This document shows positions 612 through 14,908 of a DNA stretch of 25,518 bases, piece after piece. Made by a program: the position numbers and the translations under genes. Source of the DNA: a virus; the IMG/VR virus record IMGVR_UViG_3300032291_004140, positions 1 to 25,518 of that record; one strand, written 5' to 3'. Each line of letters opens with the position of its first letter. Position 1 is the first letter of the stretch. The notes under the pieces were generated by a model. That model was not told the origin of the DNA, searched no databases, and saw nothing but the letters and a program-made list of their open reading frames with translations.

Positions 612-1592
612 ATGAAACCATCAGAACTAAAAGAAATGATACGCCGTGTAGTACAAGAAAAAAAACTTACGGCTGCTGAAAAACGCAAAAAAGAAGATAT
701 TGTTAAAGGAATGAAAAAATCCTTTAAAGGCGATAAATCGGATATGTACGCTATTGCTACCGCTAAGGCTAAAAAATTAGCAGAAGCTTCATCTAAAATA
801 GATTTAACAGCTAAAAATCAAGATGAAATAAGCGCATTATCTCCTGAACAGAAGAAAAAATTATATAATGAATTAACAGATGCTACTACTGAAGTGAATG
901 ATAATGATTTCAAAACTAAAGAAGATTATGCTAGAGCAATGAAAGATGCTAAAACAAAAGTTTATAAAAAATATATTAAATTAACAGAAGCTCAAGGCGA
1001 AGATATACATAATACTATATTTGAAATAGGTGCAACGCTTAAAAAAATTGAAAATTCATTAGATCGTGGTATTGAACATGATCCCGAAATAACAGCAAGT
1101 TTAGAACGTGCATATGGTGAATTAGTACATATTTTATCTATATTAGAACGTGAAAGAAGTGAAGTATTACCAAGTGGTCAATTCAATGAAGATTTAGATG
1201 TAGGACATCAAGATGATGAACCTGGAATGCTTAAAAATGAATTAATGAGAGCAGCTAAAATGGCTGTTATGTTATATAAAAAAGTAGACGCATATGGAGA
1301 TCAAGCTGAAGAAGTAGATTTTCCACAATGGTGGCAGTCTAAAATCATTAAAGCTAAAGATTATTTACAAGGTGCTTATGATTATTTAGATGGTGAAGAA
1401 ATGGTTGCTCAAGCAGATAATACTGGTGCTATTCAAATAGAAGAAAAAGATCCATTAAATGTTGTTGTAGCTGAAAAAAAAGCTAAAGACTTAACAGGCC
1501 CTAAAGGAAAACCAGATGGTAAAATTGATAGTGCGGATTATTTAAAAGCAAGAGATATTGCTATTCAAAAAGCAAAAGCTAAAAAGAAATAA
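612..1592 (+). CDS. Tagged virion-like protein of unknown function with degenerate EF-hand-like C-terminus
   Basis: 326 residues, Lys/Glu-rich, predicted largely helical. The N-terminus ([18 protein letters not shown]) is a short basic amphipathic helix like those at the start of the proteins at 2922, 7402 and 13622. A Lys-rich segment follows (residues ~20-60, ending LAEASS, an L-x-E site). A middle helical domain lies at about 130-270 with a conserved-looking [10 protein letters not shown] segment. The C-terminus contains [11 protein letters not shown], resembling the second half of an EF-hand or dockerin calcium loop, but the positions that would be Asp 1 and 3 are Lys. The gene at 1595 starts two bases after the stop, so they probably form one unit. 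I do not recognise a function; a structural or core protein is inferred from the promoter class and tag. Confidence 0.85.
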
Positions 1593-1594
1593 TT

Positions 1595-2077
1595 ATGGAA
1601 TTTAATTCAAAAGAAGATTTAATAGCCCATATTAGGGGTAGAGTTCGCCAAATAATGGGTAAAACAGCAGAATCTGCATACCAAGGTGATCCTAATTCTC
1701 CTATGAATATAATGTTAGCTAAATTCCCTGAATTACGCCAAACATTAGAGAAATTATTAACAATGGATTTTAGAATATTTGTTAATGATATACAGTGGGT
1801 TGCTCCTAAACCAACTACTTTTAGAATTATTCTCCCTAATGGACAGGCTTTTAATTTAATATGGAATACTCAAGATTTTATTGCTAAAGTAGCGGGTGCA
1901 AAATATGATATGTTAACACTTAAAGATCGTGAAAGAGCAACTAAAAACATAGCTGATTTACTTCAAATTGGACCTATAAACGCCAATTTATCTGCTGAAG
2001 AATTAGCTCAACAAGATCTAACTCCGGCAAAGGGAGAAGCATCAGCTCCTCCTCCTAATCCTACACAACAAGCATAA
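1595..2077 (+). CDS. Conserved phage protein of unknown function, probably virion-associated
   Basis: 160 residues, starting two bases after the previous stop and probably co-transcribed with it. The N-terminus (MEFNSKEDLIAHIRGRVRQI) is again a charged helix. The core, at about residues 35-125, has alternating hydrophobic strands (DFRIFVNDIQWVAPKPTTFR, then ILPNGQAFNLIW) that look like a small alpha/beta domain. The tail is low complexity, rich in Ala, Pro and Gln (SAPPPNPTQQA). No catalytic motif, signal peptide or membrane segment is visible. I do not recognise the family with confidence. Confidence 0.82.
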   Translation: MEFNSKEDLIAHIRGRVRQIMGKTAESAYQGDPNSPMNIMLAKFPELRQTLEKLLTMDFRIFVNDIQWVAPKPTTFRIILPNGQAFNLIWNTQDFIAKVAGAKYDMLTLKDRERATKNIADLLQIGPINANLSAEELAQQDLTPAKGEASAPPPNPTQQA

Positions 2078-2082
2078 TATAG

Positions 2083-2118
2083 TATATTTGGAAACCCAGT
2101 ATATTATACATACTTTCA
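2083..2118 (+). promoter_or_regulatory. Candidate host-type promoter (class B) for the exonuclease gene
   Basis: TTTGGAAACCCAGTA at 2087-2101 is followed by TACTTTCA at 2111-2118, 24 bases from element start to element start. The same arrangement precedes 3860 and 6315. It resembles the Bacteroidota TTTG / TAnnTTTG promoter. An overlapping exact TATATTTG box lies at 2083-2090, but without an obvious -33 TTTG partner. Confidence 0.45.
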
Positions 2119-2139
2119 CACCCAACTAACATATTCGTT

Positions 2140-2898
2140 ATGAATGAATTAAAAAAGAAAAGATTATTTTTTGACATTGAAACTAGTCCAAACATTGGTT
2201 TCTTTTGGCAATCCGGTTACAAACTAAACATATCCTATAATAACATCATTACTGAAAGAGCTATTATATGTATTTGTTACAAATGGGAAGGTGATGAAAA
2301 GTTATATTCTTTAAATTGGGATGATAGTCAAGACGACAAATCAATGCTAGAAAAATTTATAGAAATTGCCAATGAAGCTCATGAATTAGTGGGTCACAAT
2401 GGTGATAAATTTGATCTACCATGGATTAGAACACGTTGCCTATTCCATAGAATACCAGCATTCCCTAATTATACTACAATCGACACACTAAAACATGCTC
2501 GCTCCAGATTTAAGTTTAATAGTAATCGTTTAGATTATATTGCTAATTATTTGGGTGTAGGTGGCAAAACAGAAACCGGATTTGATTTATGGAAGGATAT
2601 CGTATTAAAAAACGATAAAGTTGCATTAAATAAAATGGTTGAATATTGTAAGAATGATGTATCTATACTTGAAAAAGTATATAATCACCTTGCAAATTAT
2701 GTTCCTCATAAAACACATTATGGTGCTTTATTAACAGGTGAAAAATGTTCATGCCCAGAGTGTGGATCTATTGATTTAAGATTTTCACAAAAGCGATATA
2801 CTGCGGCAGGAATGGCGCGTATTCAATTACAATGTAACGTTTGTTACAAATATCATACTGTTTCTACTAGAGCATATGAATCCTTAGTTAAGGAATAA
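2140..2898 (+). CDS. DnaQ-like (DEDDy) 3'-5' exonuclease with C-terminal zinc ribbon
   Basis: 252 residues. The N-terminal ~185 residues carry the exonuclease signature of the RNase H-like DEDD superfamily: FFDIETS (Asp12, Glu14), GHNGDKFDLPWI (Asp92), a DTLKHARSRF segment, and YCKNDV (Tyr169...Asp173), which marks the DEDDy subclass. These residues coordinate two metal ions for removal of 3'-terminal nucleotides. A C-terminal zinc ribbon follows, with cysteine pairs at 205/208 and 232/235. The ribbon could help hold nucleic acid or a partner; that is inference. The gene has a 62-base upstream gap with a host-like promoter rather than the late-type motif, so it may be an early or middle gene for DNA processing, repair or degradation. 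There is no polymerase domain, so this is a stand-alone nuclease. DNA versus RNA preference cannot be read from sequence. Confidence 0.88.
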   Translation: MNELKKKRLFFDIETSPNIGFFWQSGYKLNISYNNIITERAIICICYKWEGDEKLYSLNWDDSQDDKSMLEKFIEIANEAHELVGHNGDKFDLPWIRTRCLFHRIPAFPNYTTIDTLKHARSRFKFNSNRLDYIANYLGVGGKTETGFDLWKDIVLKNDKVALNKMVEYCKNDVSILEKVYNHLANYVPHKTHYGALLTGEKCSCPECGSIDLRFSQKRYTAAGMARIQLQCNVCYKYHTVSTRAYESLVKE

Positions 2899-2910
2899 CG
2901 AATAGTAATA

Positions 2911-2918
2911 TATTTATA
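2911..2918 (+). promoter_or_regulatory. TATTTATA promoter-like motif (class A)
   Basis: TATTTATA, preceded by TA (TATATTTATA overall), ends three bases before the ATG at 2922. This is the same spacing as at 601 and 10866. Confidence 0.5.
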
Positions 2919-2921
2919 TTC

Positions 2922-3281
2922 ATGAAACTAAGTCAATTTAGACGAAACCTGATTACCGAAGTGAAAAGGCTTATTAAAGAACAAGCTATTCCCATTAGTC
3001 GTCAAGATCTAATTGATAAAATTAAAGCCACCGATCCTAGAAATACAGGTAAAGGTGAATTTTTTACAGTAACATTTGTTAAAAGAACAGATGGCACTAC
3101 AAGAACAATGAACGCTCGCTTAGGTGTTAGAAAATATTTAAGAGGGGGTGAGTTACCTTATGATGCAGCTGAAAAAGAATTACTACCTGTTTTTGATGTA
3201 CCTAAAAACGCATATCGTATGATCGATTTACGTAGTATTATATCAGCTAAGTTAGGTGGTCAAGAATATATTGTAAAATAA
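2922..3281 (+). CDS. Small tagged protein with possible SH3-like beta-barrel domain
   Basis: 119 residues in two parts. Residues 1-21 (MKLSQFRRNLITEVKRLIKE) form a basic amphipathic helix resembling the N-terminal tags at 612, 7402 and 13622. Residues ~45-119 are beta-rich: FFTVTFVKRTDG, MNARLGVRKYL, then LLPVFDVPKNAYRMIDLRSI. This layout (K-x-DG-x-x-R near the start, then VFD...YR-x-I-D-L-R) resembles the small SH3-like beta-barrel proteins common in phages of Bacteroidota, but that is recall, not a search. It has the late-type motif directly upstream, and the gene at 3301 follows after 19 bases. It may be packaged or bound in the head; function unknown. Confidence 0.8.
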   Translation: MKLSQFRRNLITEVKRLIKEQAIPISRQDLIDKIKATDPRNTGKGEFFTVTFVKRTDGTTRTMNARLGVRKYLRGGELPYDAAEKELLPVFDVPKNAYRMIDLRSIISAKLGGQEYIVK

Positions 3282-3300
3282 AACTAAAAAGTAAAACAAA

Positions 3301-3738
3301 ATGTCAAAGCAATTTATCTCAGAAGCACAAAGAATGCAAAAATTAGCTGGTATGCCGATCAGCGAAATGTCTCTTCCCGAAATGGCACGTACTGCCGATA
3401 CAGGTGGTGCTTACACAATCACTGATAAAGGTGAAGAAATCTTAAAACAAGCTAAAGCTTCTGGAGCTGTTCCTGAAGGTATTAAAGCAAGTGAACTTGC
3501 TGCTTTAGTATTTTTGTTTAAAGCTAAAAAAGAGGGTAAAAGAGTACAAAAAATTGACTATGCTAAAGAAAGAAATGTAGCTCAACCAGCTGTAAATCCT
3601 ATCTTTAATAGCTTAGCAGTAAAAGAATTAATATCTAAAGAAGGATATACTTCAAAACAACAAGAACCAGCAACATCTAGACCAAGACCAGATGTTAGTG
3701 CTATGTTGGGTGATTTAGATATCGAAGAAGGAGTATAA
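3301..3738 (+). CDS. RMQKLAG-tagged protein with winged-helix-like domain
   Basis: 145 residues. The N-terminus contains EAQRMQKLAGM (residues 8-18), a motif repeated at the C-terminus of the scaffold protein encoded at 18194 (ARMQKLANIK). It is followed by PISE (residues 19-22) and LPE (25-27), both (I/L)-x-E sites of the sort cut by gp21-type prohead proteases. Residues ~28-115 form a helical domain: MARTADTGGAYTITDKG, ELAALVFLFKAKKEGKR and NPIFNSLAVKELISKEGY. It reads as a winged-helix fold and aligns by eye with parts of the proteins at 7402 and 13622. The tail (115-145) is Pro/Arg-rich, then acidic. It ends the unit begun at 2922 and precedes a strong terminator. Likely a core or internal head protein, possibly nucleic-acid binding; this is inference. 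Confidence 0.82.
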   Translation: MSKQFISEAQRMQKLAGMPISEMSLPEMARTADTGGAYTITDKGEEILKQAKASGAVPEGIKASELAALVFLFKAKKEGKRVQKIDYAKERNVAQPAVNPIFNSLAVKELISKEGYTSKQQEPATSRPRPDVSAMLGDLDIEEGV

Positions 3739-3745
3739 ACATACA

Positions 3746-3780
3746 GACTAGATTCATAGCCTAGTCGCCTCATTAGAGGT
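3746..3780 (+). other. Structured 3' untranslated element before the terminator
   Basis: Two adjacent stem-loops lie between the 3301 gene and its terminator: GACTAG (3746-3751) pairs with CTAGTC (3761-3766), and CCTC (3768-3771) pairs with GAGG (3776-3779). It is not a tRNA, because no acceptor or T-loop pattern fits. It could be a 3' stability element or a small RNA released with the terminator. Confidence 0.4.
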
Positions 3781-3796
3781 TCTATATATAGCATCT

Positions 3797-3828
3797 GTGG
3801 CGCACGAAAGTGCGCCACCTTTTTTTTT
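3797..3828 (+). terminator. Rho-independent terminator after the 2922-3738 unit
   Basis: A perfect 9-bp stem GTGGCGCAC / GTGCGCCAC closes a GAAA tetraloop (3806-3809) and is followed by a run of ten T residues interrupted by none after 3820. Confidence 0.9.
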
Positions 3829-3855
3829 GGAAACCAAGTAAAGATATTAACTTTA
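3826..3855 (+). promoter_or_regulatory. Candidate host-type promoter (class B) for the 3860 gene
   Basis: TTTGGAAACCAAGTA (3826-3840) starts in the terminator T-tract, and TAACTTTA (3848-3855) follows 22 bases downstream, start to start. The ATG is five bases further on. This matches the TTTG / TAnnTTTR layout seen before 2140 and 6315. Confidence 0.5.
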
Positions 3856-3859
3856 CAAT

Positions 3860-4330
3860 ATGAATATATTTTACATAAATACAGATCCAACTGTTGCTGC
3901 TCAAGAGCTTTGTGATGACCATGTTCGTAAAATGCAAATTGAGTCTGCTCAAATGTTATGTACTGCTCATTGGGCTAATGGTGGTGAAGCGCCATATAAA
4001 AAAGCACATCTTAATCATCCATCAACTAAATGGACACGTGAATCAATTCAACATTATAGATGGGTTGTAAAACATGGTTTAGAAGTTTGTAATGAATTTA
4101 CTAAGCGTTATGGTAAACATCACAAAACACAAGATGTACTTGAATGGTGTCGTGATAATGAGCCTAATATTCCCAATAATGAATTTACTCCTCCACCTCA
4201 ATGCATGCCTGAGGAATACAAGAAAGAAGATACAATAGAGGCCTATAAAACTTATTATATTCAAGATAAAGTAAAAATTAAAGGTCTAAAATGGAATAAA
4301 CTAAATAATAAACCAATATGGATAAAATAG
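3860..4330 (+). CDS. Conserved phage protein of unknown function (His/Trp/Lys-rich core)
   Basis: 156 residues, a full-length match to a protein I recall from many T4-like phages, including those of cyanobacteria, where it is annotated as hypothetical. The recognisable conserved positions are NTDPTVAAQELCDDHVRKM (an Asp/His/Lys helix), ESAQMLCTAHW, LNHPSTKWTRESIQHYRWVV, RYGKHHKTQDV and the C-terminal YYIQDK. The dense conserved His, Trp, Arg and Asp residues suggest an enzyme or nucleic-acid-binding site, but no named catalytic motif can be assigned. The gene stands alone behind its own host-like promoter and a strong upstream terminator, so it is expressed separately from virion genes. There is no signal peptide or membrane segment, so it is probably cytoplasmic. 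Confidence 0.85.
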   Translation: MNIFYINTDPTVAAQELCDDHVRKMQIESAQMLCTAHWANGGEAPYKKAHLNHPSTKWTRESIQHYRWVVKHGLEVCNEFTKRYGKHHKTQDVLEWCRDNEPNIPNNEFTPPPQCMPEEYKKEDTIEAYKTYYIQDKVKIKGLKWNKLNNKPIWIK

Positions 4331-4356
4331 GGTGTTGGTCTGATGGGATTTTAGTA

Positions 4357-4364
4357 TATTTATT
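4357..4364 (+). promoter_or_regulatory. TATTTATT promoter-like motif (class A variant)
   Basis: TATATTTATT lies 12 bases upstream of the ATG at 4377; the last base differs from TATTTATA. It is a candidate promoter for the homing endonuclease and possibly the FAD enzyme behind it. Confidence 0.4.
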
Positions 4365-4376
4365 GTAAATAATGAT

Positions 4377-4994
4377 ATGACTAAAATATATGTTTTAGAA
4401 AGAAATGGAATACCTTTTTATGTAGGTAAGGCAAATGACGTAGTAAGACGAAAATATAAACATCATCAAACTTATGGTCCCAATATAACATTAACTATTA
4501 TTGATAAAGTTAAAAATTGGAAATTTTGGGAAGAATATTGGATTGAACAATTTAAAGTATGGGGTTTTAATTTATTAAATCAAAATAAAGGTGGAGGTGG
4601 TCCTGAGCAATATACCGAAGAACAAAAACAAAAAATGAGAAAACCTCGTATATTAGGAACAGGAGATAAAATAAGTAAAACATTGAAACAAAGAAACCAT
4701 TCAAAATATTATACTGAAAGTGTAAAACAAAAAATAAGTAAAGGAAACAAAATACCCAAACCATTTTCAGATCAACATAAACAAAATATGGGTATTGCTA
4801 AACGCAAGCAAGCAAAATCTGTATTACAATACGATTTAAATGATAATTTAATTAAAGAATGGGAAAGTAAAGGACAAGCAGCTGAGTGGATTAAAGAACA
4901 AACAGGTAAAACAAGTAATATAACATCACAGATAAAAGATTGTTGCTTGGGGAGACAAAAAACAGTTTTTAAATTTAAATGGAAATATAAATAA
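4377..4994 (+). CDS. GIY-YIG homing endonuclease with NUMOD-type DNA-binding repeats
   Basis: 205 residues, Lys/Gln-rich. The N-terminal ~75 residues fit a GIY-YIG nuclease: KIYVLERNG, then FYVGKANDVVRRKYKHH, and a WEEYWIEQF helix that supplies the likely catalytic Glu. GGGGPEQYTEEQKQKM leads into tandem NUMOD3-like units (near residues 80-90, 110-125 and 130-142, pattern S/T-E/D-x-x-K-Q-K). A NUMOD1-like segment at the end includes VLQYDLNDNLIKEWESKGQA. Such enzymes cut a specific site and spread by recombination. This one is free-standing and interrupts no recognisable gene, though it lies next to the 3860 and FAD enzyme genes, either of which could flank its target. The downstream ATG follows the stop by two bases. 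The initial Gly of the GIY motif is replaced by Lys, so activity is uncertain. Confidence 0.87.
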   Translation: MTKIYVLERNGIPFYVGKANDVVRRKYKHHQTYGPNITLTIIDKVKNWKFWEEYWIEQFKVWGFNLLNQNKGGGGPEQYTEEQKQKMRKPRILGTGDKISKTLKQRNHSKYYTESVKQKISKGNKIPKPFSDQHKQNMGIAKRKQAKSVLQYDLNDNLIKEWESKGQAAEWIKEQTGKTSNITSQIKDCCLGRQKTVFKFKWKYK

Positions 4995-4996
4995 TT

Positions 4997-6295
4997 ATGA
5001 AACAAAAGAAAATTGTAATTGTAGGAAGCGGTGTCGCAGGCATAAATGCAGCTACTAAACTAGTTGATAATGGGTACCCAGGACATTTAATTACTATTAT
5101 AGATAAAGGCAGAGATCCATATGAACGCCAACCAGAAGAAGTAATGTGTGGTTTTGCAGGTGCAGGAGCGTGGAGTGACGGCAAATTAACTTACCACACA
5201 GCAATTGGCGGACAATTAGCTAAATATTGTGGTGAAGAAAAAGCAATGAATTTAATGGACCAAGTAATATCTAATTTCAGACGCTTTCACCCTAAACCAG
5301 ATGAAATATTTATGTCTGACCCTACTGCTGAACCTGAATTTATTAAACCATATTTTGGATTACGTTTATTTCCTGTATGGCACATTGGAAGTAATTTCTT
5401 ACACGAGATTGCTAAAGCGTGGTATTCATTTTTAGTAGATAAAGGAGTTAAGTTTATATGGAATACTGAAATTACTCATATTGATTTTGAAGTACAAGTT
5501 ATAAATGCTGATAAACAAGATCTTGTAATGGGATATGATGAACTTATTTTTGCTGTAGGTAAATCAGGTATTGATTTTGCTCAAGCATTAGCCGATAGAT
5601 ATCAACTACCCAATGAACCCAAATCAGTACAAATCGGTGTTCGATTTGAAGCACCACAAAAATATTTCCAAAAACTAATAGATATTAGCTATGACTTTAA
5701 ACTCTATCAAAAATTCGATAACGTATCCCTTCGTAGCTTTTGTACTAATAATAACGCTGCTTATGTGGCGGTTGAAGAAACGTATGGTGATGTTTCGTAC
5801 AATGGTCACGCGAAAAAAGGAGAAGAATTCAGAAACAATATGACCAACTTTGGCATATTAATGGAAATTAAAGGTATTGAAGATCCATTTAAATGGTCAC
5901 GTGATGTAGTTAAAAAACTACAAATTGATGATAAAGGAGGAATTTATTTTACTCCTAAAGATCGTGTTCCTTCATTAACATCTGAAGGTGAAACTGTTAA
6001 ATCCTTTAAAGTAACTAATCTAGGATTATTTAAATATGTAATGGGTGAATATGCTGACTATATTATTAACTTTATAGATCAAATGGATAAAGTATTTGAA
6101 TTTGGGGATGATTATGGATTTTATGCTCCTGAAGTAAAATATCTATCACCTGAACCACTAGTTAACTATACAGATCTATCATTAAATGAATACCCCAATA
6201 CTCACTTTGTAGGTGATGCTCTATCCGCTCGTGGAATTACAGTTAGTGGTGCACACGGTATTTATGTTGCAGAAAGTATTTTGGAAACGAAATAA
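4997..6295 (+). CDS. FAD-dependent dehydrogenase/oxidoreductase (COG2509-like)
   Basis: 432 residues. The N-terminus has a Rossmann dinucleotide-binding motif (VIVGSGVAGINAATKL, residues 7-22) and an acidic strand end (TIIDKG). GFAGAGAWSDGKLTYH at about residue 50 is the flavin-contacting segment typical of the uncharacterised FAD-dependent dehydrogenase family related to HI0933 and geranylgeranyl-reductase-like proteins. VSLRSFCTNNNAAYVAVE mid-protein matches that family's R-x-F-C segment. The C-terminus has FVGDALSARGITVSGAHGIYVAES, the second FAD contact. Substrate unknown. It starts two bases after the endonuclease stop, so it may share a transcript. Length and motifs look intact, so it is probably an active cytoplasmic flavoenzyme. 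A full-length flavoprotein is uncommon in T4-like phages and suggests an auxiliary metabolic gene. Confidence 0.85.
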   Translation: MKQKKIVIVGSGVAGINAATKLVDNGYPGHLITIIDKGRDPYERQPEEVMCGFAGAGAWSDGKLTYHTAIGGQLAKYCGEEKAMNLMDQVISNFRRFHPKPDEIFMSDPTAEPEFIKPYFGLRLFPVWHIGSNFLHEIAKAWYSFLVDKGVKFIWNTEITHIDFEVQVINADKQDLVMGYDELIFAVGKSGIDFAQALADRYQLPNEPKSVQIGVRFEAPQKYFQKLIDISYDFKLYQKFDNVSLRSFCTNNNAAYVAVEETYGDVSYNGHAKKGEEFRNNMTNFGILMEIKGIEDPFKWSRDVVKKLQIDDKGGIYFTPKDRVPSLTSEGETVKSFKVTNLGLFKYVMGEYADYIINFIDQMDKVFEFGDDYGFYAPEVKYLSPEPLVNYTDLSLNEYPNTHFVGDALSARGITVSGAHGIYVAESILETK

Positions 6296-6310
6296 TTAAT
6301 TATACCTTTA
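6280..6310 (+). promoter_or_regulatory. Candidate host-type promoter (class B) for the 6315-7382 unit
   Basis: TTTGGAAACGAAATA (6280-6294) lies in the last codons of the FAD enzyme gene, and TACCTTTA (6303-6310) follows 23 bases downstream, start to start. The ATG at 6315 is four bases beyond, so the transcript may be leaderless. Confidence 0.5.
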
Positions 6311-6314
6311 TATT

Positions 6315-6602
6315 ATGGAAGAAAGAAGAGGTAGACCCGCAACAATAATACAAGAACCAACAACACGTAAATTTACTCGTTTATATGAAGATGATGAAAC
6401 TATTGAAACGTGGACATTTGATCTAGATAAATTTGAACGTGGTCCTATTAATGTTGAAATTAAATATAAAGATGGTTTAGATAAACCTAAAAACTGGAAC
6501 GCAAGAGTTAAAGAGGCTAAAGACCAAAGACGTACAGATAGACAAATGAAAAAAATAAACAACATACAAAATGGAAAAAAAGGTAAAAACAACAGACGGT
6601 AG
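6315..6602 (+). CDS. Small basic phage protein of unknown function
   Basis: 95 residues. The N-terminal part is mixed-charge (MEERRGRPATIIQE), the middle beta-like (TIETWTFDLDKFERGPINVE, then IKYKDGL). The C-terminal ~35 residues are strongly basic and helical (ARVKEAKDQRRTDRQMKK, ending GKKGKNNRR). No catalytic motif, cysteines or membrane segment are seen. The last 32 bases overlap the next gene in another frame, suggesting translational coupling. It is first in a three-gene unit with 6571 and a P-loop protein at 6852, behind a host-like promoter, so it is likely an early or middle gene. Possibly nucleic-acid binding from charge only. Confidence 0.75.
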   Translation: MEERRGRPATIIQEPTTRKFTRLYEDDETIETWTFDLDKFERGPINVEIKYKDGLDKPKNWNARVKEAKDQRRTDRQMKKINNIQNGKKGKNNRR

Positions 6603-6852
6603 TACATTACATTTATCTCTAACAACTCGTTTAGGACATGACATTATGGATAAAAAAGATCCTAAAGCAAATGAGAAAATTTGGGTACTTCATAGTACTG
6701 AAGGCCCAGCTTTAATTACACCTGAAGGAAAAAAAGAATATTATTTCTGGGGTATATACCAAGGTAATAATATAGAAATTCTTAAAGATCTTAAGCGTAA
6801 CCATACTGGATTACCACCAGCAAAAAATCCATTATTTAAAACAAGATTATAA
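6571..6852 (+). CDS. Small phage protein of unknown function
   Basis: 93 residues, overlapping the 6315 gene by 32 bases and the 6852 gene by one base (stop and start share an A). The sequence has a Lys/Asp-rich first half and a central WVLHSTEGPALITPEGKKEY followed by YFWGIYQGNN. The EGPAL-x-x-PEGK-x-YYFWG stretch resembles single units of the repeat proteins in which a GPA motif alternates with an aromatic strand, but only one unit is present here. No catalytic residues can be pointed to. Function unknown; the tight overlap argues that it is a real translated gene coupled to its neighbours. Confidence 0.75.
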   Translation: MEKKVKTTDGSTLHLSLTTRLGHDIMDKKDPKANEKIWVLHSTEGPALITPEGKKEYYFWGIYQGNNIEILKDLKRNHTGLPPAKNPLFKTRL

Positions 6853-7382
6853 TGAAGATAGGATTAGTAGGTACAATGAGTGTAGGTAAAACTACATTAG
6901 CAAAAGCATTAGGTGAGTTAGAACAATTTAAGAATTATAGTGTGCAAACTGAACGTAGTAAATATTTATGCGATTTAGGCATTCCATTAAATACTGATTC
7001 TACATTACCTGGTCAATTTGTATTTCTAGCGGAACGTGCTAGTGAATTATTACATGATAATATTATTACTGACAGAACGATATGGGATGTATGTTCATTT
7101 ACATTAGGTGCTAAATCCATCAGCGATTATGAAAAAAGCATATTTGTTGAATCAGCTATGACTCTTAAAGATTACTACGATATAATTATTTACGTATCAC
7201 CTCGTGGAGTTAATATGGAAGATAATGGCGTTCGTGAAACTGATTTAGGATATCGTATAAAAATTGATAATACTATATGTAAGTTACTTGAAGAATATGT
7301 ACCTTATTTTTTAATAAAAGTTGAAGGAACAACAGAGGAACGAATTAAAATGGTGTTAGAAACAATTGATAAATATTTATAG
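6852..7382 (+). CDS. P-loop NTPase, kinase-like (AAA_28/NadR-type)
   Basis: 176 residues. The Walker A motif is GTMSVGKT at residues 7-14, directly after the first strand. A short acidic lid-proximal segment (TERSKYLCDLGIP) and LPGQFVFLAER follow, then IITDRTIWDVCSF, which places the DR-x-x-x-D motif typical of the P-loop kinases related to NMN/ribosylnicotinamide kinase and nucleoside monophosphate kinases. IIIYVSPRGVNMEDNGVRET likely holds the phosphoryl-transfer lid arginines. Expected activity is ATP-dependent phosphorylation of a nucleotide or small molecule, substrate not readable from sequence. The final codons (KYL-stop) contain the late-type motif used by the next gene. It starts on the last base of the preceding stop codon, so translation is probably coupled. 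Confidence 0.83.
   Translation: MKIGLVGTMSVGKTTLAKALGELEQFKNYSVQTERSKYLCDLGIPLNTDSTLPGQFVFLAERASELLHDNIITDRTIWDVCSFTLGAKSISDYEKSIFVESAMTLKDYYDIIIYVSPRGVNMEDNGVRETDLGYRIKIDNTICKLLEEYVPYFLIKVEGTTEERIKMVLETIDKYL
7374..7381 (+). promoter_or_regulatory. TATTTATA promoter-like motif (class A) inside the preceding stop region
   Basis: TATTTATA is embedded in the last codons (Tyr-Leu-stop) of the P-loop gene and lies 20 bases before the ATG at 7402. Confidence 0.4.
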
Positions 7383-7401: not shown

Positions 7402-8481
7402 ATGAATAAGAACACATTAAAAGAATATATTAAATCACAAATCCGTGAAAAACTATATGCCGGCCCTAGCTCCGTTAACCTAGCCAAAGCAGACCCGGAC
7501 TATGGTAGACTAAAACAACAAGAAAAAGGAGAAATTGAAAGAACACTCAAAACAGGAGGTTCAGTTGAGCTTGAAGAAATGGCACGTAAAGCGGTCGTAT
7601 ATAAAGTAACTGAAGATTTTAAAGAAAAAGCTAAAAATATTAGAACAGGCGGCCCTATCAGCCCGGTTAAATTAGCTAATACGTTAAAGTTTTTGGAAGG
7701 AAAAGATGAAACAACAGGTCCTGAAATTGCTCTTGGTTTAGGTTTTGTAGACGAAAAAGGAAAGGCAAAAATGCCTGCTATATATCCAATATTTGATGCT
7801 TTAATTAAAGCAGATGCTCTTGTAGCTACTGGGGATTCAGAAACAGAAGAAGTTTCTGATACACCAATAAATAAAAATATGGAAGATCTTTACTATAGTG
7901 ACGTATACGATAAATCAAGTGCTGCACCTGAAGAAGAAGAAGAACCAGAAATAAAATCACTTGAAAAAATTACTACTACATCAGATCCAATAACTCAAGT
8001 AGCCGTTAATTTTACCCTGGATAATGACGATATGATCCAATCATTAATTAGAACATATAAAGAATCACGAGTTCGTATTGGTGAAATTCGTGAAGAAGAA
8101 GGTGATTTGAGTGCTTCTGATTATAAAAAAGCAATAAAGCAAAGTAAAGAATCAAGTGTAGAAAGACTAAGTAAAAAAATTGATGACTTAGTGAGTAAAA
8201 TTCAAGAATTGGAACCTAAAGTACAAGATAAAGTACTTAAAATATTAGATTTTAAATTTAAATCAGTAGATGCAACTAATTTATCTAAAATAATTGCTAA
8301 AAAATTAGGTAAAAGTGCTCCCGCTGATGTCCCTATAGAAACAGATATTGAAGATATTGAAGATACTGATGATGAAATTATGGAAGACTCAGGAGTAGAA
8401 GATGTTGATCACGACGATTCTAGTTTTAAAGACTATGACAGTGTATATGAGCGTTTAGTAAAAAAATTAAAGGGAACCTAG
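7402..8481 (+). CDS. Acidic tagged protein with winged-helix-like domain
   Basis: 359 residues from the ATG at 7402. An upstream in-frame ATG at 7366 would add 12 residues but overlaps the previous gene and the promoter motif and would bury the N-terminal tag, so 7402 is preferred. Residues 1-20 (MNKNTLKEYIKSQIREKLYA) are a basic amphipathic helix like those at 612, 2922 and 13622. LEE (57-59) precedes MARKA; residues ~60-150 resemble the domain of the 3301 protein: MAR, a TED/TDK turn, LANTLKFLEGKDE, then YPIFDALIKADALVATG. The rest is strongly acidic with a Lys/Glu coiled-coil-like region (~230-300) and an Asp/Glu-rich C-terminus. Perhaps a prohead core or internal protein; it may also play a scaffolding role. 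Function unproven. Confidence 0.82.
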   Translation: MNKNTLKEYIKSQIREKLYAGPSSVNLAKADPDYGRLKQQEKGEIERTLKTGGSVELEEMARKAVVYKVTEDFKEKAKNIRTGGPISPVKLANTLKFLEGKDETTGPEIALGLGFVDEKGKAKMPAIYPIFDALIKADALVATGDSETEEVSDTPINKNMEDLYYSDVYDKSSAAPEEEEEPEIKSLEKITTTSDPITQVAVNFTLDNDDMIQSLIRTYKESRVRIGEIREEEGDLSASDYKKAIKQSKESSVERLSKKIDDLVSKIQELEPKVQDKVLKILDFKFKSVDATNLSKIIAKKLGKSAPADVPIETDIEDIEDTDDEIMEDSGVEDVDHDDSSFKDYDSVYERLVKKLKGT

Positions 8482-8511: not shown

Positions 8512-9183
8512 ATGAAAAAATTAATTTTTCCCTTGGTTGTCGTTGCGTTGTTATTTTGGATATTCATTGATAAATGTAATTATTCTAATTTATCTGATGA
8601 TTTTAAAGCAAAACAAGATAGTTTAGTACAAACTGTAGATTCACTACAAGTGGAAATTGCTAAAAGTGATTCTGTTATTAATGATTTAAACATTCTTGAT
8701 GCTGAATTGAATTATCAAGTAATGCATCAAAAGAATAAAATTAAAACAGTTGTTAAGTACGTTGAAGTAGAAAAGAATAAAATTGATACCTACTCTGAAA
8801 CTGAATTAGTATCATCATTTAATAAGCGTTACCCAACAGACACAACAACTAATCCGCTTCCTATAGCTCAACCGGTATTAATAGCTACCGCTAAAGATTT
8901 AGTAGAATTTGATGGTGCTAAACAAGAATTAGTTATTAAAGACAGTATTATTGTTTTAGATGAACAAAGAATAGCAAATAAAGATAGTATTATTTCTGTT
9001 CAAAATAAAAAAGAACTAAATTATAATAACATAGTAATTAATCAAGATATGCAAATTGAAGGTTTAAGATTTCAATATAATGCACTTAAGGTTAAAAATC
9101 AAAAACTTAAAGTACAAGCCAAAATAGGTAAAATAGGAACGGGGTTAGCAATAGCTGGTCTTACATTTTTACTTATAAAATAG
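8512..9183 (+). CDS. Membrane-anchored coiled-coil protein, possible spanin
   Basis: 223 residues. Residues 3-20 are a hydrophobic segment (LIFPLVVVALLFWIFI) followed by a Cys and an Asn/Ser-rich stretch. Residues ~30-90 and ~130-200 are heptad-like coiled coil, separated by a short Pro/Thr segment (RYPTDTTTNPLPIAQPV). The last ~18 residues (GKIGTGLAIAGLTFLLIK) are a second hydrophobic segment. The topology suggests anchorage at both ends with the coiled coil in the periplasm. An N-anchored coiled coil is the layout of i-spanins, which join inner to outer membrane at lysis; a hydrophobic C-terminus is a u-spanin trait, but here the N-terminal Cys lacks a proper lipobox. No endolysin or holin is visible nearby. 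A structural membrane protein is the alternative. Confidence 0.78.
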   Translation: MKKLIFPLVVVALLFWIFIDKCNYSNLSDDFKAKQDSLVQTVDSLQVEIAKSDSVINDLNILDAELNYQVMHQKNKIKTVVKYVEVEKNKIDTYSETELVSSFNKRYPTDTTTNPLPIAQPVLIATAKDLVEFDGAKQELVIKDSIIVLDEQRIANKDSIISVQNKKELNYNNIVINQDMQIEGLRFQYNALKVKNQKLKVQAKIGKIGTGLAIAGLTFLLIK

Positions 9184-9189
9184 TTCTAC

Positions 9190-9233
9190 CTTAGGAACAC
9201 CCCCCGCTATAGTCTCAGCATTATAGTTCTAAG
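9190..9233 (+). other. Structured 3' untranslated element before the terminator
   Basis: An imperfect long stem: CTTAGGAA (9190-9197) pairs with TTCTAAG (9227-9233) with one bulged G, and CTATA (9207-9211) pairs with TATAG (9222-9226). A C-run (9201-9205) lies in an internal loop. As at 3746, it sits between a gene and a rho-independent terminator. Confidence 0.4.
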
Positions 9234-9260
9234 ACCTAACCCCGTAAGGTTAGGTTTTTT
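9234..9260 (+). terminator. Rho-independent terminator after the 7402-9183 unit
   Basis: The 8-bp stem ACCTAACC (9234-9241) / GGTTAGGT (9248-9255) has a 6-base loop and is followed by a T-run to 9260. It separates the spanin-like gene from the terminase gene. Confidence 0.88.
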
Positions 9261-9263
9261 GTA

Positions 9264-9271
9264 TATTTATA
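9264..9271 (+). promoter_or_regulatory. TATTTATA promoter-like motif (class A) for terminase
   Basis: TATATTTATA immediately follows the terminator T-run and lies 13 bases before the ATG at 9285. The position between a terminator and a head gene is what a promoter would need. Confidence 0.55.
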
Positions 9272-9284
9272 TATAAACGTGTGA

Positions 9285-10862
9285 ATGAGCGATTCAAATA
9301 TTAAAGAAATAATAAGACAGGAATATGTTAAATGCATGACTGATCCTTCTCATTTCATGAAGAAATATTGTATGATTCAACATCCAACCAGGGGTCGTAT
9401 ACAATTCAATTTATATCCTTTTCAAGACAAAGTATTACACCAATTCCAAAAAAATAATTATAACCTTGTTCTTAAATCCCGTCAGTTAGGTATATCAACA
9501 TTGGTAGCTGGTTTTTCATTATGGATGATGGTATTCCATAGAGATAAAAACGTACTATGTATAGCAACTAAACAAGATACAGCTAAAAATATGGTTACTA
9601 AGGTAAGATTCATGTATGATAACTTACCATCGTGGTTAAAAGGAGCTGAGAAGCCTTTGGAGAACAACAAACTTTTACTTAAATTGGCGAATGGTTCTCA
9701 AGTAAAAGCAGTTTCAGCTGCCGGTGATGCTGGTAGATCTGAAGCCGCTTCTTTACTTATTATAGATGAGGCCGCGTTCATTGAAAGTATTGAGGAAATA
9801 TATGCTTCTGCTCAACAAACCTTAGCAACAGGTGGTGGTTGTATTGCATTATCTACTCCAAATGGCACTGGTAATTGGTTTCATCAAACATGGCAGAAAG
9901 CAGAAGTAGGAGACAATTCATTTGTGCCTATTAAATTACCATGGTCTGTACACCCTGAAAGAGATAAAAACTGGAGGGAAAGACAAGATGCAGATTTAGG
10001 AATTAGAATGGCTGCTCAGGAGTGTGATTGTGATTTTTCCACCTCCGGAGATACAGTATTCGAACCAGATACTATTACTTGGTTTGAAGCTAATTTAATG
10101 GAACCTATTGAAAAAAGAGGTGTAGATGGTAACTTATGGATATGGGAACAACCCAATTATAATAAGAGCTATTTAGTAGTAGCAGACGTAGCTAGAGGAG
10201 ATGGCAAAGACTACTCAGCGTGTCATGTGTTTGATGTTGAAACAGCTGCTCAAGTAGCAGAATATAAGGGACAACTAGGCACTAGAGAATATGGCCATAT
10301 GTTAGTAGGTATAGCAGCCGAATATAATGACGCGTTATTATCAATAGAAAATGCTAACGTAGGTTGGGATACAGTACAAACAGCAATTGATAGAGGATAC
10401 AGAAATTTATATTATTCTCCAAAACAAGATGCTTTAACATCTGATCAATGGAGTAGAAGAATGGAAAATATAAATGGTTTAGTAGCCGGATTCACAACAT
10501 CTGTAAAAACTAGACCATTGATGATTGAAAAGTTTAGAGAATATACACATGAAAAAGCATGTATTATTCGTTCAAAACGATTAGTAGAAGAGATGAAGGT
10601 TTTTATTTGGAAAAATAGTAAAGCTCAATCACAAGAAGGATATAATGATGATCTAGTAATATCATTCAGTATGGGATTATATTTAAGAGATACAGCATTA
10701 AGATTTAGAAAAAATAACATGGAACAAGATAAAGCGTCTATAGCAGCTATATCCATAGATAGAGGATATATGAATCACTACAATGCTACAAATAGTACAC
10801 TTAATCCTTGGAAAATGCATACACCTCAAGGTACTGAAGATATTACTTGGTTAATAGGATAA
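9285..10862 (+). CDS. Terminase large subunit (T4 gp17-like packaging ATPase-nuclease)
   Basis: 525 residues, somewhat shorter than T4 gp17 (610). The N-terminal half is the packaging ATPase: a deviant Walker A SRQLGIST at 65-72 (terminase-type), Walker B LLIIDEAAF with Asp161-Glu162, and a coupling motif region at LSTPNGTGNWF. The C-terminal half is the RNase H-fold nuclease, starting with VVADVARGDGKDYS (Asp301 as first metal ligand), LSIENANVGWD as the middle acidic motif, and YNDDLVISFSMG near residue 450 as the last. The protein docks on the portal and drives DNA into the prohead, then cuts it. It precedes the portal gene directly; T4 has tail genes 18 and 19 between them. No small terminase gene is recognisable in this window. 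The stop at 10862 is four bases from the next promoter-like motif. Confidence 0.97.
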   Translation: MSDSNIKEIIRQEYVKCMTDPSHFMKKYCMIQHPTRGRIQFNLYPFQDKVLHQFQKNNYNLVLKSRQLGISTLVAGFSLWMMVFHRDKNVLCIATKQDTAKNMVTKVRFMYDNLPSWLKGAEKPLENNKLLLKLANGSQVKAVSAAGDAGRSEAASLLIIDEAAFIESIEEIYASAQQTLATGGGCIALSTPNGTGNWFHQTWQKAEVGDNSFVPIKLPWSVHPERDKNWRERQDADLGIRMAAQECDCDFSTSGDTVFEPDTITWFEANLMEPIEKRGVDGNLWIWEQPNYNKSYLVVADVARGDGKDYSACHVFDVETAAQVAEYKGQLGTREYGHMLVGIAAEYNDALLSIENANVGWDTVQTAIDRGYRNLYYSPKQDALTSDQWSRRMENINGLVAGFTTSVKTRPLMIEKFREYTHEKACIIRSKRLVEEMKVFIWKNSKAQSQEGYNDDLVISFSMGLYLRDTALRFRKNNMEQDKASIAAISIDRGYMNHYNATNSTLNPWKMHTPQGTEDITWLIG

Positions 10863-10865
10863 AAA

Positions 10866-10873
10866 TATTTATA
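10866..10873 (+). promoter_or_regulatory. TATTTATA promoter-like motif (class A) for the portal gene
   Basis: TATTTATA ends three bases before the preferred portal ATG at 10877, the same spacing as at 612 and 2922. This supports the 10877 start. Confidence 0.5.
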
Positions 10874-10876
10874 CAC

Positions 10877-12739
10877 ATGATAGACACATCTTTATTTGGT
10901 AGATTAAAAAGATTATTTTCGACGGACGTTATTATTAGAAACGTTGGTGGTAATCAAGTATCAGTAATAGACACGGACCATATACAATCGTCTGGGGTAG
11001 TACAAACAAACATGTACCCCGATAGATACCAACGTATCTATACCGGAGGTTTAGGAACTTATATAGGTAATGCTCCGTATTCTAACTTTACAATACTACG
11101 ACCTCAATTATATAATGACTATGAAGTAATGGATGGTGATCCAATTGTAGCATCTGTATTAGATATTGTAGCGGATGAATCTACACTTAAAAACGGAGCA
11201 AGTGAAATACTAGCTATTAAATCATCTGACGAAAATATTCAAAGAATATTATATAACTTATTTTATGATATTTTAAATATTGAATTTAATCTTTGGGGTT
11301 GGATTCGATCAATGTGTAAATACGGTGATTTTTATTTACATCTACACGTATCAGAAAAATATGGTGTGTATAATGTACTTCCTCTTAACGTTTATAACGT
11401 ATTAAGAGAAGAAGGACTTGATCCTAAAAATCCTTCATACGTAAGATTTAGAGTTGAACCGAATGCTTCATATACTGGGGTATTAGGTTCAAATGATAAA
11501 AATAGTACTATATTTGAAAACTATGAAATTGCAAATTTCCGTTTATTAGGAGATTATAATTTCCTTCCTTATGGTCGTTCATATATTGAGCCTGCTCGTA
11601 AAATATTTAAGCAATTAGCATTAATGGAAGATGCGATGTTAATCCATCGTATATTAAGAGCACCTCAACGTCGTGTTTACTATGTTGATACCGGAAATAT
11701 CCCACCAAATGAGATTCCAGCCTACATGGAAAAACTTAAAACTCAAACTCAACGTACTCCATATGTTGATCCAAAGTCAGGTGAATATAACCTTCGTTAT
11801 AACATGATGAATGTGAATGAAGATTTTTATGTACCTGTTAGAGGTGGAAATACAGCAACTAAAATTGATACATTACCGGGTCTTGAATATAATGCTATTG
11901 ATGATGTTATTTACTTAAGAGATAAAATGTTATCGGCAATGAAAGTTCCTAAGGCATTCTTAGGATATGAAGCGGATGTAGAAGGTAAATCAACACTAGC
12001 ACAACAAGATATTCGTTTTGCTCGTACAATTGAACGTATTCAACGTATAGTAGTATCTGAATTAACAAAAATTGCGTTAGTACACCTATATGCTCAAGGG
12101 TATACGGATGAGAATTTAACCAATTTTGAGTTGGAATTAACGACTCCTTCCATTGTTTACGACCAAGAAAGAGTGGCGTTGATGAAAGAAAAAGTTGATT
12201 TAGCTAAAAATATTATGGATACTGGTTTGTTTCCAACAGATTATATCTATGACTATTTATTCCATCTGAGTGAAGATAAATTTGAGGAAATGCGTGATTT
12301 AGTAGTTGAAGATAAAAAACGTTTCTTCCGATTCTCTCAAATTGAAAATGAAGGTAATGATCCCGTATCAAGCGGCCAGTCATATGGTACACCGCATGAT
12401 CTCGCGTCATTATACGGTAAAGGCCGCAATGGAATGGGTATACCACCAGCTTATGATGAAACTAATCCTGTTGGAAGACCACAGACTAAAACGTCAGTAT
12501 ACAATACACAAAAACGTGTATTGGGTAAAGATCCATTAGGCAAATACATGGATATCCATCCTGACTCGAGCAAAGCTCCTGAACCAAAAGGAGGTTCGCC
12601 TTTAGCTCTTGAAAGTACTAAAGCGGTATACGTGCAAAACAAGCAAATGCTTGCGGAAATGTTTAAAAAGTCAAATGTATTCGATAAGGATAATAATAGC
12701 AAATCATTATTAGATGAATCAAATATCAAAGATATATAA
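10877..12739 (+). CDS. Portal protein (T4 gp20-like)
   Basis: 620 residues from the ATG at 10877. An in-frame ATG at 10847 overlaps the terminase gene and would add ten residues, so it was not chosen. The sequence follows gp20: YNDYEVMDGDPIVASVLDIV in the N-terminal wing, LWGWIRSMCKYGDFYLH, LPYGRSYIEPARKIFKQL, RRVYYVDTGNIPPNEIPAYM in the stem/crown region, and AMKVPKAFLGYEAD with GKSTLAQQDIRFARTIERIQ. Twelve copies would form the ring at one capsid vertex through which DNA enters, and which nucleates prohead assembly. It is about 100 residues longer than T4 gp20 (524); the extra part is a Pro/Gly/Lys-rich C-terminal tail from ~500 (GRNGMGIPPAYDETNPVG onward), probably flexible. Confidence 0.96.
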   Translation: MIDTSLFGRLKRLFSTDVIIRNVGGNQVSVIDTDHIQSSGVVQTNMYPDRYQRIYTGGLGTYIGNAPYSNFTILRPQLYNDYEVMDGDPIVASVLDIVADESTLKNGASEILAIKSSDENIQRILYNLFYDILNIEFNLWGWIRSMCKYGDFYLHLHVSEKYGVYNVLPLNVYNVLREEGLDPKNPSYVRFRVEPNASYTGVLGSNDKNSTIFENYEIANFRLLGDYNFLPYGRSYIEPARKIFKQLALMEDAMLIHRILRAPQRRVYYVDTGNIPPNEIPAYMEKLKTQTQRTPYVDPKSGEYNLRYNMMNVNEDFYVPVRGGNTATKIDTLPGLEYNAIDDVIYLRDKMLSAMKVPKAFLGYEADVEGKSTLAQQDIRFARTIERIQRIVVSELTKIALVHLYAQGYTDENLTNFELELTTPSIVYDQERVALMKEKVDLAKNIMDTGLFPTDYIYDYLFHLSEDKFEEMRDLVVEDKKRFFRFSQIENEGNDPVSSGQSYGTPHDLASLYGKGRNGMGIPPAYDETNPVGRPQTKTSVYNTQKRVLGKDPLGKYMDIHPDSSKAPEPKGGSPLALESTKAVYVQNKQMLAEMFKKSNVFDKDNNSKSLLDESNIKDI

Positions 12740-12748
12740 CAAAATATA

Positions 12749-12756
12749 TATTTATA
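12749..12756 (+). promoter_or_regulatory. TATTTATA promoter-like motif (class A) for the head-core unit
   Basis: TATATTTATA lies 17 bases before the GTG at 12774, in the only sizeable gap (34 bases) between the portal and head-core genes. Confidence 0.45.
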
Positions 12757-12773
12757 ACTAGTAAATAAATAGT

Positions 12774-13625
12774 GTGAAATTAAAGCATAACAAATTTAAG
12801 AATACTGGGATTTTATTTGAACTTCTTACAAGACAAATCACAGCTGATATAATGTCTAATAAGGAATCTGCAGCTGTGGATATTGTAAAGACATATTTTG
12901 CACGCGGCGAATTAGCTAAAGAATATAAACTATATCAAGTACTAACTAAAGCGGCTTCTTTAAGTGAATCTAAAGCAGAAAGTATAATTAATTCAACTAT
13001 TAGATTAGCTGAACGTTTAAATCGTACGGCATTACGTAAAGAAAAATATAACTTAATTAGAGAAATTAAGGAAAAATACGACTTAGAAGAATTTTTCAAA
13101 GCAAAAATACATAACTATAAAGCACACGCTGCTATATATAATCTAATTGAAGTTCATCTTTCATCAGATTTTATAGAGCCGGCATTTGTTATTGATAATA
13201 AAGTAACTTTACTTGAATTTTTGACAAAACAAGATATAGATAAAAATAAAGTTGAAGATAAAGTAATGCTTGAGTATGCTAGTCAAGATACGGTTACCCG
13301 TAATTTGATTTCTAAAATCATGATTGAAAAATTCAATGAAAAGTATGCTGACTTATTACCTGAACAACGTGATGTATTAAAAACGTATATTAATAAAATA
13401 TCTAATACTGTTTCTTTACGTGAGTATGTTAATAAAAACTTTGAATCAATTAAAGCTTCTTTAGGTATATTACAAGCTAAAGTAACTGATCAAAGAACTC
13501 AAATTAAACTTAAAGAACTCCAATTAATTATTAAACCACTTGATAAGAGTGAATCAGTAAAAGATGAAGATATATTAAATCTTCTTCAATTCCATGAATT
13601 AATCCATGAAATTCAATCTCTATGA
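12774..13625 (+). CDS. Conserved phage protein of unknown function in the gene 67/68 position
   Basis: 283 residues with a GTG start; no in-frame ATG upstream fits, and the N-terminus (MKLKHNKFKNTGILFELLTR) looks intact. The protein is all-helical by eye, with charged helices throughout (LAERLNRTALRKEKYNLIRE, EFFKAKIHNYKAHAAIYNLI) and no cysteines, signal or membrane segment. Four large genes (12774-16848) lie between portal and protease, where T4 has the small prohead-core genes 67 and 68. From memory, this NKFKNTGILFELL-type protein is common in marine T4-like phages next to the portal. Its stop overlaps the next start (ATGA), so translation is coupled. Head-core function is inferred from position. 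Confidence 0.85.
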   Translation: MKLKHNKFKNTGILFELLTRQITADIMSNKESAAVDIVKTYFARGELAKEYKLYQVLTKAASLSESKAESIINSTIRLAERLNRTALRKEKYNLIREIKEKYDLEEFFKAKIHNYKAHAAIYNLIEVHLSSDFIEPAFVIDNKVTLLEFLTKQDIDKNKVEDKVMLEYASQDTVTRNLISKIMIEKFNEKYADLLPEQRDVLKTYINKISNTVSLREYVNKNFESIKASLGILQAKVTDQRTQIKLKELQLIIKPLDKSESVKDEDILNLLQFHELIHEIQSL

Positions 13626-14908
13626 TACCTGAGGAATTAAAAAAATATATTGATGAATTAATTAGCCAAACATTAAAAGAAATGGACGGGGCTACATCAA
13701 CTACAGCTAGTGCTGGTGGTGAATACACTAGCAAATACTTTCTTAAAAGACCTAGAAAAGATGAAGGAAAAACACCCACATTAGCTGCTGGCCAATCAAA
13801 TATCAGCACATACACTAAGGATGGATTTAAAAAAGTAGAATCAGGTATGCCTTCCGATTCTAAAATATACGATTACAAGCAGTTCCCATCAACTCCAAAG
13901 CCAAAAAGATACAAATTATATAAAGAAGCAAGTAAAAAACCTATGGGACGCAGATTTATCCCATCAGAATTTGAATTTCCTTCATTTTTACTTGAACCTA
14001 TTAAAATAGGGGATACATCTAGAATATATTTTAAAGTAGTTACTAATAGTAAGGGAGAATCAGTATTAATGATTGATCCTTTAGTTAAAGTATCTTTAGA
14101 TAATATAGAGAGAGGTAGAACTTCTTTTGAAAAAGAAGCAGGTTTAGGTGAACTAACTAGATTTATTAAAGATAAAGTTCCTAATAGCGTTAGAGGATTA
14201 ATAAAAAAAGCATCTCAAGGAGCTAAAATAAGGGGTAATGATTTTATAGTATTAAATCTTATGTTAAGTAAAAGTCCATCAAGTGGTGGTTCTGTATCTA
14301 ATAATGAAATTAGTATAACTCCTGAAGGTATACAATTATTAAGAGATGTTAAAGCAGATAGTAGCAAAGGTGAAGGAATTGAAGATGAATTATCATTATT
14401 AATATGGTTATATAGAAATAAAGATAAAAATAATACACCTAAAGATTTTTCAACTGAAACAGGTGAATCTATGCAACTCGCTTCCAGGCTAACAAATAAA
14501 CTATCATCAGGTGGTTATATAGGTATGGAAGAAAAAGCATCTGGTGGAGATGGTAAAACATGGTACGTAAAAAATCCATATAAGTCTGGTGATTATGAAG
14601 ATATCAATGTTAAATTATACGAATCATTAAAAGATATGATCAAAACAGAATTATTAAATGAAATATCATATCGTCGTTTTAATGAAAATGTTTCTAAAGT
14701 ATCTGTTGAGCGTAAAGTTGCTCGTGCATTAAATGAAGTTAGAAAACGTATTAGAGAAATTGAACAAGTGATAGAATATTCAAATAGATTAAAAACCGAA
14801 AATACAATAAAAAAAGAGTCATTCTGGACTTCTAAAACTGAACAATTAGAAGCATTATCTGAAAGACTTAATCAACTATCTAGTAAAATTAGAACTTTAT
14901 CCCAATAA
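13622..14908 (+). CDS. Tagged protein with winged-helix-like domain, head-core cluster
   Basis: 428 residues, starting in the ATGA overlap with the previous gene. Residues 1-21 (MIPEELKKYIDELISQTLKE) are an amphipathic helix comparable to the tags at 612, 2922 and 7402. Residues 25-110 are low-complexity, rich in Ser/Thr/Lys/Pro. Residues ~110-225 form an alpha/beta part (FPSFLLEPIKIGDTSRIYFK, then VVTNSKGESVLMIDPLVKVS). Residues ~229-305 resemble the winged-helix-like domain of the 3301 protein: ITPEGIQLLRDVKA, DELSLLIWLYRNKDKNN, RLTNKLSSGGYIGM. The C-terminal ~70 residues are a long coiled coil (VARALNEVRKRIREIEQVIE onward). There is no catalytic motif. It is likely a prohead core or internal head component; DNA contact through the winged helix is a guess. 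Confidence 0.83.
   Translation: MIPEELKKYIDELISQTLKEMDGATSTTASAGGEYTSKYFLKRPRKDEGKTPTLAAGQSNISTYTKDGFKKVESGMPSDSKIYDYKQFPSTPKPKRYKLYKEASKKPMGRRFIPSEFEFPSFLLEPIKIGDTSRIYFKVVTNSKGESVLMIDPLVKVSLDNIERGRTSFEKEAGLGELTRFIKDKVPNSVRGLIKKASQGAKIRGNDFIVLNLMLSKSPSSGGSVSNNEISITPEGIQLLRDVKADSSKGEGIEDELSLLIWLYRNKDKNNTPKDFSTETGESMQLASRLTNKLSSGGYIGMEEKASGGDGKTWYVKNPYKSGDYEDINVKLYESLKDMIKTELLNEISYRRFNENVSKVSVERKVARALNEVRKRIREIEQVIEYSNRLKTENTIKKESFWTSKTEQLEALSERLNQLSSKIRTLSQ

Follow-up and report, generated by a model that had tools for sequence, protein, structure and literature searches.

Delivery by a capsid targeting sequence (CTS) is known for only a handful of phage T4 proteins, among them IPI, which counters a restriction enzyme of the host. 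For IPIII the first ten residues suffice, residues 4 and 7 serving mainly targeting and residues 8 and 10 processing, and the protease gp21, which cleaves after Glu in the motif L/I-x-E, itself carries LIE-9 (PMC9026906). In phage P1 the N-terminal 30 residues of DarB are sufficient to carry a foreign protein into the capsid; the authors found no consensus among the Dar proteins (PMC9024508). Head propeptides of phiKZ and SPN3US are cut after Glu by a relative of gp21, and two SPN3US paralogues have an identical 15-residue N-terminus (PMC5694885). T4, P1 and the giant phages are the precedents for the tags considered here, of which no description was found in the part of the literature that was covered.

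The DNA analyzed (the window, 25,518 bases) is an entire virus record and a fragment of a T4-like phage genome. Its nearest cultured relatives are Flavobacterium phages (immuto, host Flavobacterium sp. LMO8, TerL identity 58%). An earlier note on this DNA held that four proteins, beginning at 612, 2922, 7402 and 13622, open with a shared helix ahead of unrelated bodies, and proposed a T4-like targeting logic for it. The shared N-terminal helices are probably capsid (prohead-core) targeting sequences cut by a gp21-family protease. The head genes of the window are as follows.

9285-10862, + strand: large terminase TerL, gp17-like (Terminase_6N), the landmark of the head module
10877-12739, + strand: portal, gp20-like, T4-type (Portal_T4, E 2e-66)
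12774-16848, + strand: core-gene interval from portal to protease, with genes 12774-13625, 13622-14908, 14915-15412 and the type D protein 15412-16848 (gene order compared with T4; cargo modules are fused into the type D proteins of relatives)
16853-17494, + strand: prohead protease, gp21 family, starting MKQLLIER with LIE-7, comparable to the T4 LIE-9 (Peptidase_S77, E 1.6e-28)
18194-19486, + strand: putative scaffold, gp22-like, from its position between protease and capsid protein
19508-19687, + strand: putative propeptide, residues 1-60 of the major capsid protein, ending LVTE-60 (Glu60 invariance; Gp23 family, E 9e-80)

The T4 order of portal, core genes 67/68, protease, scaffold and capsid is the same in the window, where gene 13622 sits between portal and protease as genes 67 and 68 do. 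A Pfam search gave no match for 18194 or the core-interval proteins, although their gene order agrees with T4; the scaffold role of 18194 is therefore put forward from position. Six N-terminal segments are of concern here.

612-659, + strand: type A tag, residues 1-16 of protein 612-1592 (held-out profile score 18.9; 0 of about 26,000 decoys)
2922-2981, + strand: type A-like tag, residues 1-20 of the WYL_2-like protein 2922-3281, with ITE-13 and IKE-20 (p 0.0051 alone; G011 orthologue p 0.00076)
7402-7449, + strand: type A tag, residues 1-16 of protein 7402-8481, MNKNTLKEYIKSQIRE, with LKE-8 and IRE-16 (p 0.00065; kept in orthologues)
13622-13681, + strand: type A tag, residues 1-20 of the putative prohead-core protein 13622-14908, with IDE-12 and LKE-20 (p 0.0013; conserved in the family)
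3301-3366, + strand: type B tag, residues 1-22 of protein 3301-3738, MSKQFISEAQRMQKLAGMPISE (type B profile made without the window: score 48.8, best decoy 11.7)
262-291, + strand: possible short tag, residues 1-10 of protein 262-573, MSKYNQMLNE (regular expression match only)

The likeness to T4, where the CTS of IPI, IPII and IPIII and the propeptide of Alt are known, lies in a short helix-like N-terminal segment on unrelated bodies, the L/I-x-E motif, a gp21-family protease and a T4-type head module (PMC9026906, PMC9958956, PMC3012670). There are also clear differences. Type A tags have about 16-20 residues in contrast to the 10 of T4, several interchangeable classes exist, one genome has 27 carriers against the handful in T4, and most tagged genes lie beside or inside the head module, whereas the T4 ip genes lie elsewhere. 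No homology of the window tags to T4 MKTYQEFIAE was found, nor did the type A profile match anything in T4; the tags therefore stand outside the T4 CTS sequence family and would only work like it. The T4-like logic of the earlier note is supported by the sequence tests, but the tags are unlike MKTYQEFIAE and come in several classes. DarB of P1 has the kind of N-terminal capsid targeting proposed here, but in one protein. The phiKZ and SPN3US propeptides are mostly longer than 100 residues and have the motif A/S-x-E, in contrast to the short L/I-x-E tags found here on unrelated bodies (PMC5694885).

All four open reading frames and N-termini are present as quoted. The 7402 start is an ATG within a longer TTG frame, and orthologues in L085 and L088 begin at the same ATG. 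By BLAST the four bodies are mutually unrelated, as the earlier note had it. Judged within the window alone, the likeness of the four N-termini is modest: 3/405 body-unrelated N-terminal pairs score at least 28, compared to 0 shuffled, 0 internal and 1 C-terminal pair. The type A profile covers 13 positions, about M-K-K-S-E-L-K-Q-I-I-K-E-E-I. Its training left out the window and close relatives as well as the scaffold, TerL, portal, protease and capsid families; scaffold and TerL were removed because the first type A profiles absorbed their homologues, which dominated the fetched loci. Body clustering was also tightened, a loose single-linkage version having merged unrelated acidic proteins. 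With this held-out profile 612, 7402, 13622 and 2922 rank above every other scored gene of the window. TerL is practically tied with 2922 (p 0.0054 and 0.0051) although no tag is expected on it, so that 2922 is not significant alone; its call is weak, backed by the G011 orthologue and by other tag classes on the same body elsewhere. The 612 orthologue, G011 24563, has p 4e-5. A database scan for relatives of 2922 gave one locus, and a similar scan for 7402 found none.

In relatives the type A segment recurs on dozens of body-unrelated proteins. The profile accepts 77 proteins in 36 body clusters, compared to 0-7 for shuffled versions of these N-termini. Within immuto, N-termini of 22 residues score at least 40 in 15 gene pairs with unrelated bodies (shuffled, internal and C-terminal controls 0); some of these are signal peptides or tail-fibre starts, and the remainder fall in a few recurring classes. 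Some gene starts are uncertain because genes were called by a simple script, and single near-threshold tag calls can be false. Few tagged genes occur in G008 and the close relative G001, a point against capsid targeting, though both are fragments. No type A match came from the head region of cyanophage P-SSM4. As a positive control, the same pipeline applied to T4 gave the known tag of ipII/ipIII as the top pair outside homing endonucleases.

An out-of-sample test used LR756508, which comes from an uncultured phage of 484 kb (TerL identity about 43%). The unchanged type A profile is passed by 27/696 predicted genes, with 0.8 expected (p 2e-31); shuffled N-termini give 0-4 and internal segments of the same proteins pass at about 0.1%. 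None of the 27 tagged bodies is related to another. At 120-170 kb 12/55 genes pass, compared to 15/641 elsewhere, and the tagged genes sit in the gaps that separate the portal (145.8-149.9 kb), the protease (156.5-158.2 kb) and the scaffold (170.2 kb). The profile search of the genome and related phages that the earlier note proposed has yielded N-termini that beat both shuffled and internal controls.

Type A is not the only class. The 3301 tag, of type B (consensus about E-A-x-R-M-Q-K-L-A-G-I-I-x-E), differs from type A and is stronger than any of the four named. The earlier list of tagged proteins, whose four entries stand, was incomplete: 3301 was absent from it, as were 262 and the protease 16853, which have short T4-like L-x-E N-termini. 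Type C, about N-F-D-L-K-K-F-L-V-E-N-K-L-T-x-N-S, opens several immuto proteins. The short T4-like tags are defined by a regular expression (M, one to nine residues, a hydrophobic residue, L/I, any residue, E). The homologue of 262 in phage C48C1 starts MKKFKQYIDEG, nearer to the T4 tag. Another T4-like motif, FQEFLAEA, occurs on some core-interval proteins of related contigs; its count (5 N-termini, 0 internal in 722,000 residues) is only suggestive because the five carriers are partly orthologous.

Orthologous bodies carry different classes depending on the phage, and the tags are therefore interchangeable. For example, one body has tag A in immuto (102294), B in L003 (body identity 66%), and a short start in L061, while in L124 and L116 its start is C-like. 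On the WYL_2-like body of 2922, tag A occurs in the window and also in G011 and L230, whereas G009 has C and L231 a short tag. A DUF5872-like body has the sequence IIKEILSE-KKADRC in immuto and LLEQILQE-KADRC in G010, and an NT5C nucleotidase-like body that carries a short tag in immuto opens in G010 with an A-type start. Domains start directly behind the tag (NT5C at residues 24-26, DUF5872 at 22, DUF5661 at 36, Zeta_toxin at 11), where the DUF5872 match and one NT5C match fall under Pfam's own cut-offs. This swapping of classes suggests that the core recognizes a loose helix rather than one exact sequence.

In the AlphaFold model of 3301 the tag lies outside the confident, winged-helix-like body. 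The fold matches, most of them to winged helices, are weak; DNA binding by this body is therefore only a suggestion. The model of 7402 is poor (mean pLDDT 56). The bodies of 7402 and 3301 may have a winged-helix-like module in common (pairwise E 0.006); a profile comparison of the two was not significant.

Tagged genes are concentrated near head genes. Within -8 to +22 kb of TerL, 39/269 genes are of class A, B or C compared to 15/1251 elsewhere (p 3e-19), a count that takes in core-interval genes, near TerL by definition, and genomes that are related and not independent. For short tags the figures are 40/269 near TerL and 55/1251 elsewhere. The putative prohead-core protein (the 13622 family) itself begins with a tag. 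Cargo modules are found fused into the type D core-interval protein for 13/275 tagged and 13/2305 untagged genes (p 5e-7), several of these matches coming from one module. That search used an HMM from type D members; it replaced a profile from core-interval protein 15412, which was dropped after it drifted to thousands of matches because the ranges scanned differed between decoys and genes.

Most tags contain L/I-x-E, and all classes tend to end in it. The Glu12 occurrence in type A is inside the profile and for that reason is not independent evidence; Glu20 is outside the profile, and L/I-x-E is found there in 11/36 clusters (p 2e-10). In the window 2922, 7402 and 13622 fit the motif, and 612 fits loosely, with LKE-8 within the helix and a looser VQE-16. 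In LR756508 the positions of the motif are more scattered. Glu60 of the capsid protein is invariant in 90/90 relatives, with V/I-x before it, a context consistent with a protease specificity that is related though perhaps not identical.

If the tags work in this way, the helix would dock its cargo during head assembly onto the scaffolding core formed on the portal. After closure of the shell, the gp21-family protease would cut behind the Glu of L/I-x-E, in or just past the helix, freeing the cargo inside the head and clearing the peptide. For T4 IPIII, a Glu-to-Asp change at the cleavage site is reported to leave packaging intact while preventing the cut. In immuto the predicted cargoes include immuto26A_176, 177, 179, 187, 188, 191, 194, 195 and 199; in immuto26A_187 a cut after ILSE-19 would give the new N-terminus KKADRC. 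The cargo would be packed with the DNA and presumably then enter the host. Classes A, B, C and the short T4-like tags would all lead to this one destination and be interchangeable among cargoes.

Could the resemblance be chance, four look-alikes having been picked from the many Lys/Glu-rich amphipathic helices of AT-rich phages? The window-only pair scores, slightly above controls, and a TerL that scores like 2922 would fit, but composition-preserving shuffles gave 0-7 hits where 77 were seen and, out of sample, 0-4 where 27 were seen, internal segments pass at about 0.1%, and tags are swapped between orthologues. Chance is refuted for the tag class and is a very improbable account of the four helices, although a single protein such as 2922 could be a chance resemblance. 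Recombining regulatory cassettes that spread a promoter, start codon and first codons, leaving a functionless peptide, are barely credible. Some pairs are near identical in codons (e.g., G010 28595 and 29883, 12/13 codons), but synonymous codons differ in most pairs with near-identical residues. The likeness is in protein, not DNA: within one genome tags agree in residues but in many cases not in codons, and the 60 upstream bases resemble each other no more than those of random pairs, which is evidence against a copied promoter cassette.

Two other explanations accept a functional peptide. The helices might be core- or partner-binding segments that are kept uncleaved, with cargo that acts in assembly and not in the next host. 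The absence of a clean L/I-x-E at the helix end of 612 and the variable motif positions in the 484-kb phage agree with this, but the Glu20 enrichment outside the profile, the tendency of all classes to end in L/I-x-E, the encoded gp21-family protease and the cleavage seen in the same arrangement in T4 (PMC9026906) make it unlikely. A tag that sends proteins elsewhere (tail or baseplate, a chaperone, or degradation) is less likely still, and quite improbable. In its favour, several genomes have a type A-like family (immuto 81525 and relatives) beside their baseplate genes, and tagged genes far from the head module also occur. Against this, there is strong enrichment at terminase, portal and protease and within the core-gene interval, modules are shared with core-interval proteins, and L/I-x-E is the motif of the head protease. 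Capsid targeting is supported by the indirect sequence tests, all of which agree with it: modularity, swapping, protein-level conservation, enrichment at head genes, a tag on the putative core protein, L/I-x-E and Peptidase_S77.

For the wider group, it is somewhat probable that many aquatic T4-like phages, including the 484-kb one, rely on interchangeable, cleavable N-terminal tags for loading dozens of different proteins into the head (nucleotidase-like, zeta-toxin-like kinase, WYL_2, winged-helix-like and uncharacterized ones), and that this repertoire can be predicted from sequence. If so, the tags would mark a much larger, mostly uncharacterized set of head-packed and possibly injected proteins of aquatic phages. 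With them, candidates for early proteins directed against the host or its defences could be found in unculturable genomes by a simple sequence-based rule. The helices look like cleavable head-loading labels, and the list of proteins a phage packs could therefore be readable from its genome.

The body of the type A-tagged protein encoded at 612-1592 of the window is a mosaic. A module of about 80 residues from this body (around 180-270) is found again in many proteins with differing tags, and it also occurs inside a type D core-interval protein of a related locus (L031). The L092 507 protein consists, from N- to C-terminus, of tag C, repeats, tag C once more at an internal position, and a body like that of window 2922-3281 (WYL_2-like). 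The repeats, numerous and each about 37 residues long (W-T-x-x-x-L-E-Q-E-A-x-K-Y-N-T...), separate the two tag copies; judged by this arrangement, the protein looks like a gene fusion.

The putative prohead-core protein at 13622-14908, encoded between portal and protease, has orthologues of 171-196 residues. The window protein is about 230 residues longer, with the extra segment inserted at about 105-331; a weak MarR-like match (residues 256-311) lies within it.

The short tag MIKLTQLLQE of L213 6581-7375 (genome G010) directly precedes a zeta-toxin-family kinase domain (E 2e-12). In the window, 3860-4330, situated in the midst of the tagged genes upstream of the large terminase (TerL) gene, encodes a pyrimidine dimer DNA glycosylase family protein (E 3e-7). 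In Microcystis phage Mel-JY01, an annotated ribosomal protein S21 gene (L232 22183-22410) is located between the protease and capsid genes, and in the uncultured 484-kb phage LR756508 an S21-looking ORF (169713-169952) is immediately followed by the scaffold.

Compared with the window proteins, the LR756508 portal (145763-149923, L237) and protease (156480-158204, L238) ORFs contain long in-frame insertions: similarity is split over three blocks in the 1386-residue portal ORF and two in the 574-residue protease ORF. These insertions are possibly inteins. In G004 (C1:6956-9729), TerL is divided between two ORFs with about 1.15 kb between them; an intron or homing element may have caused the split.
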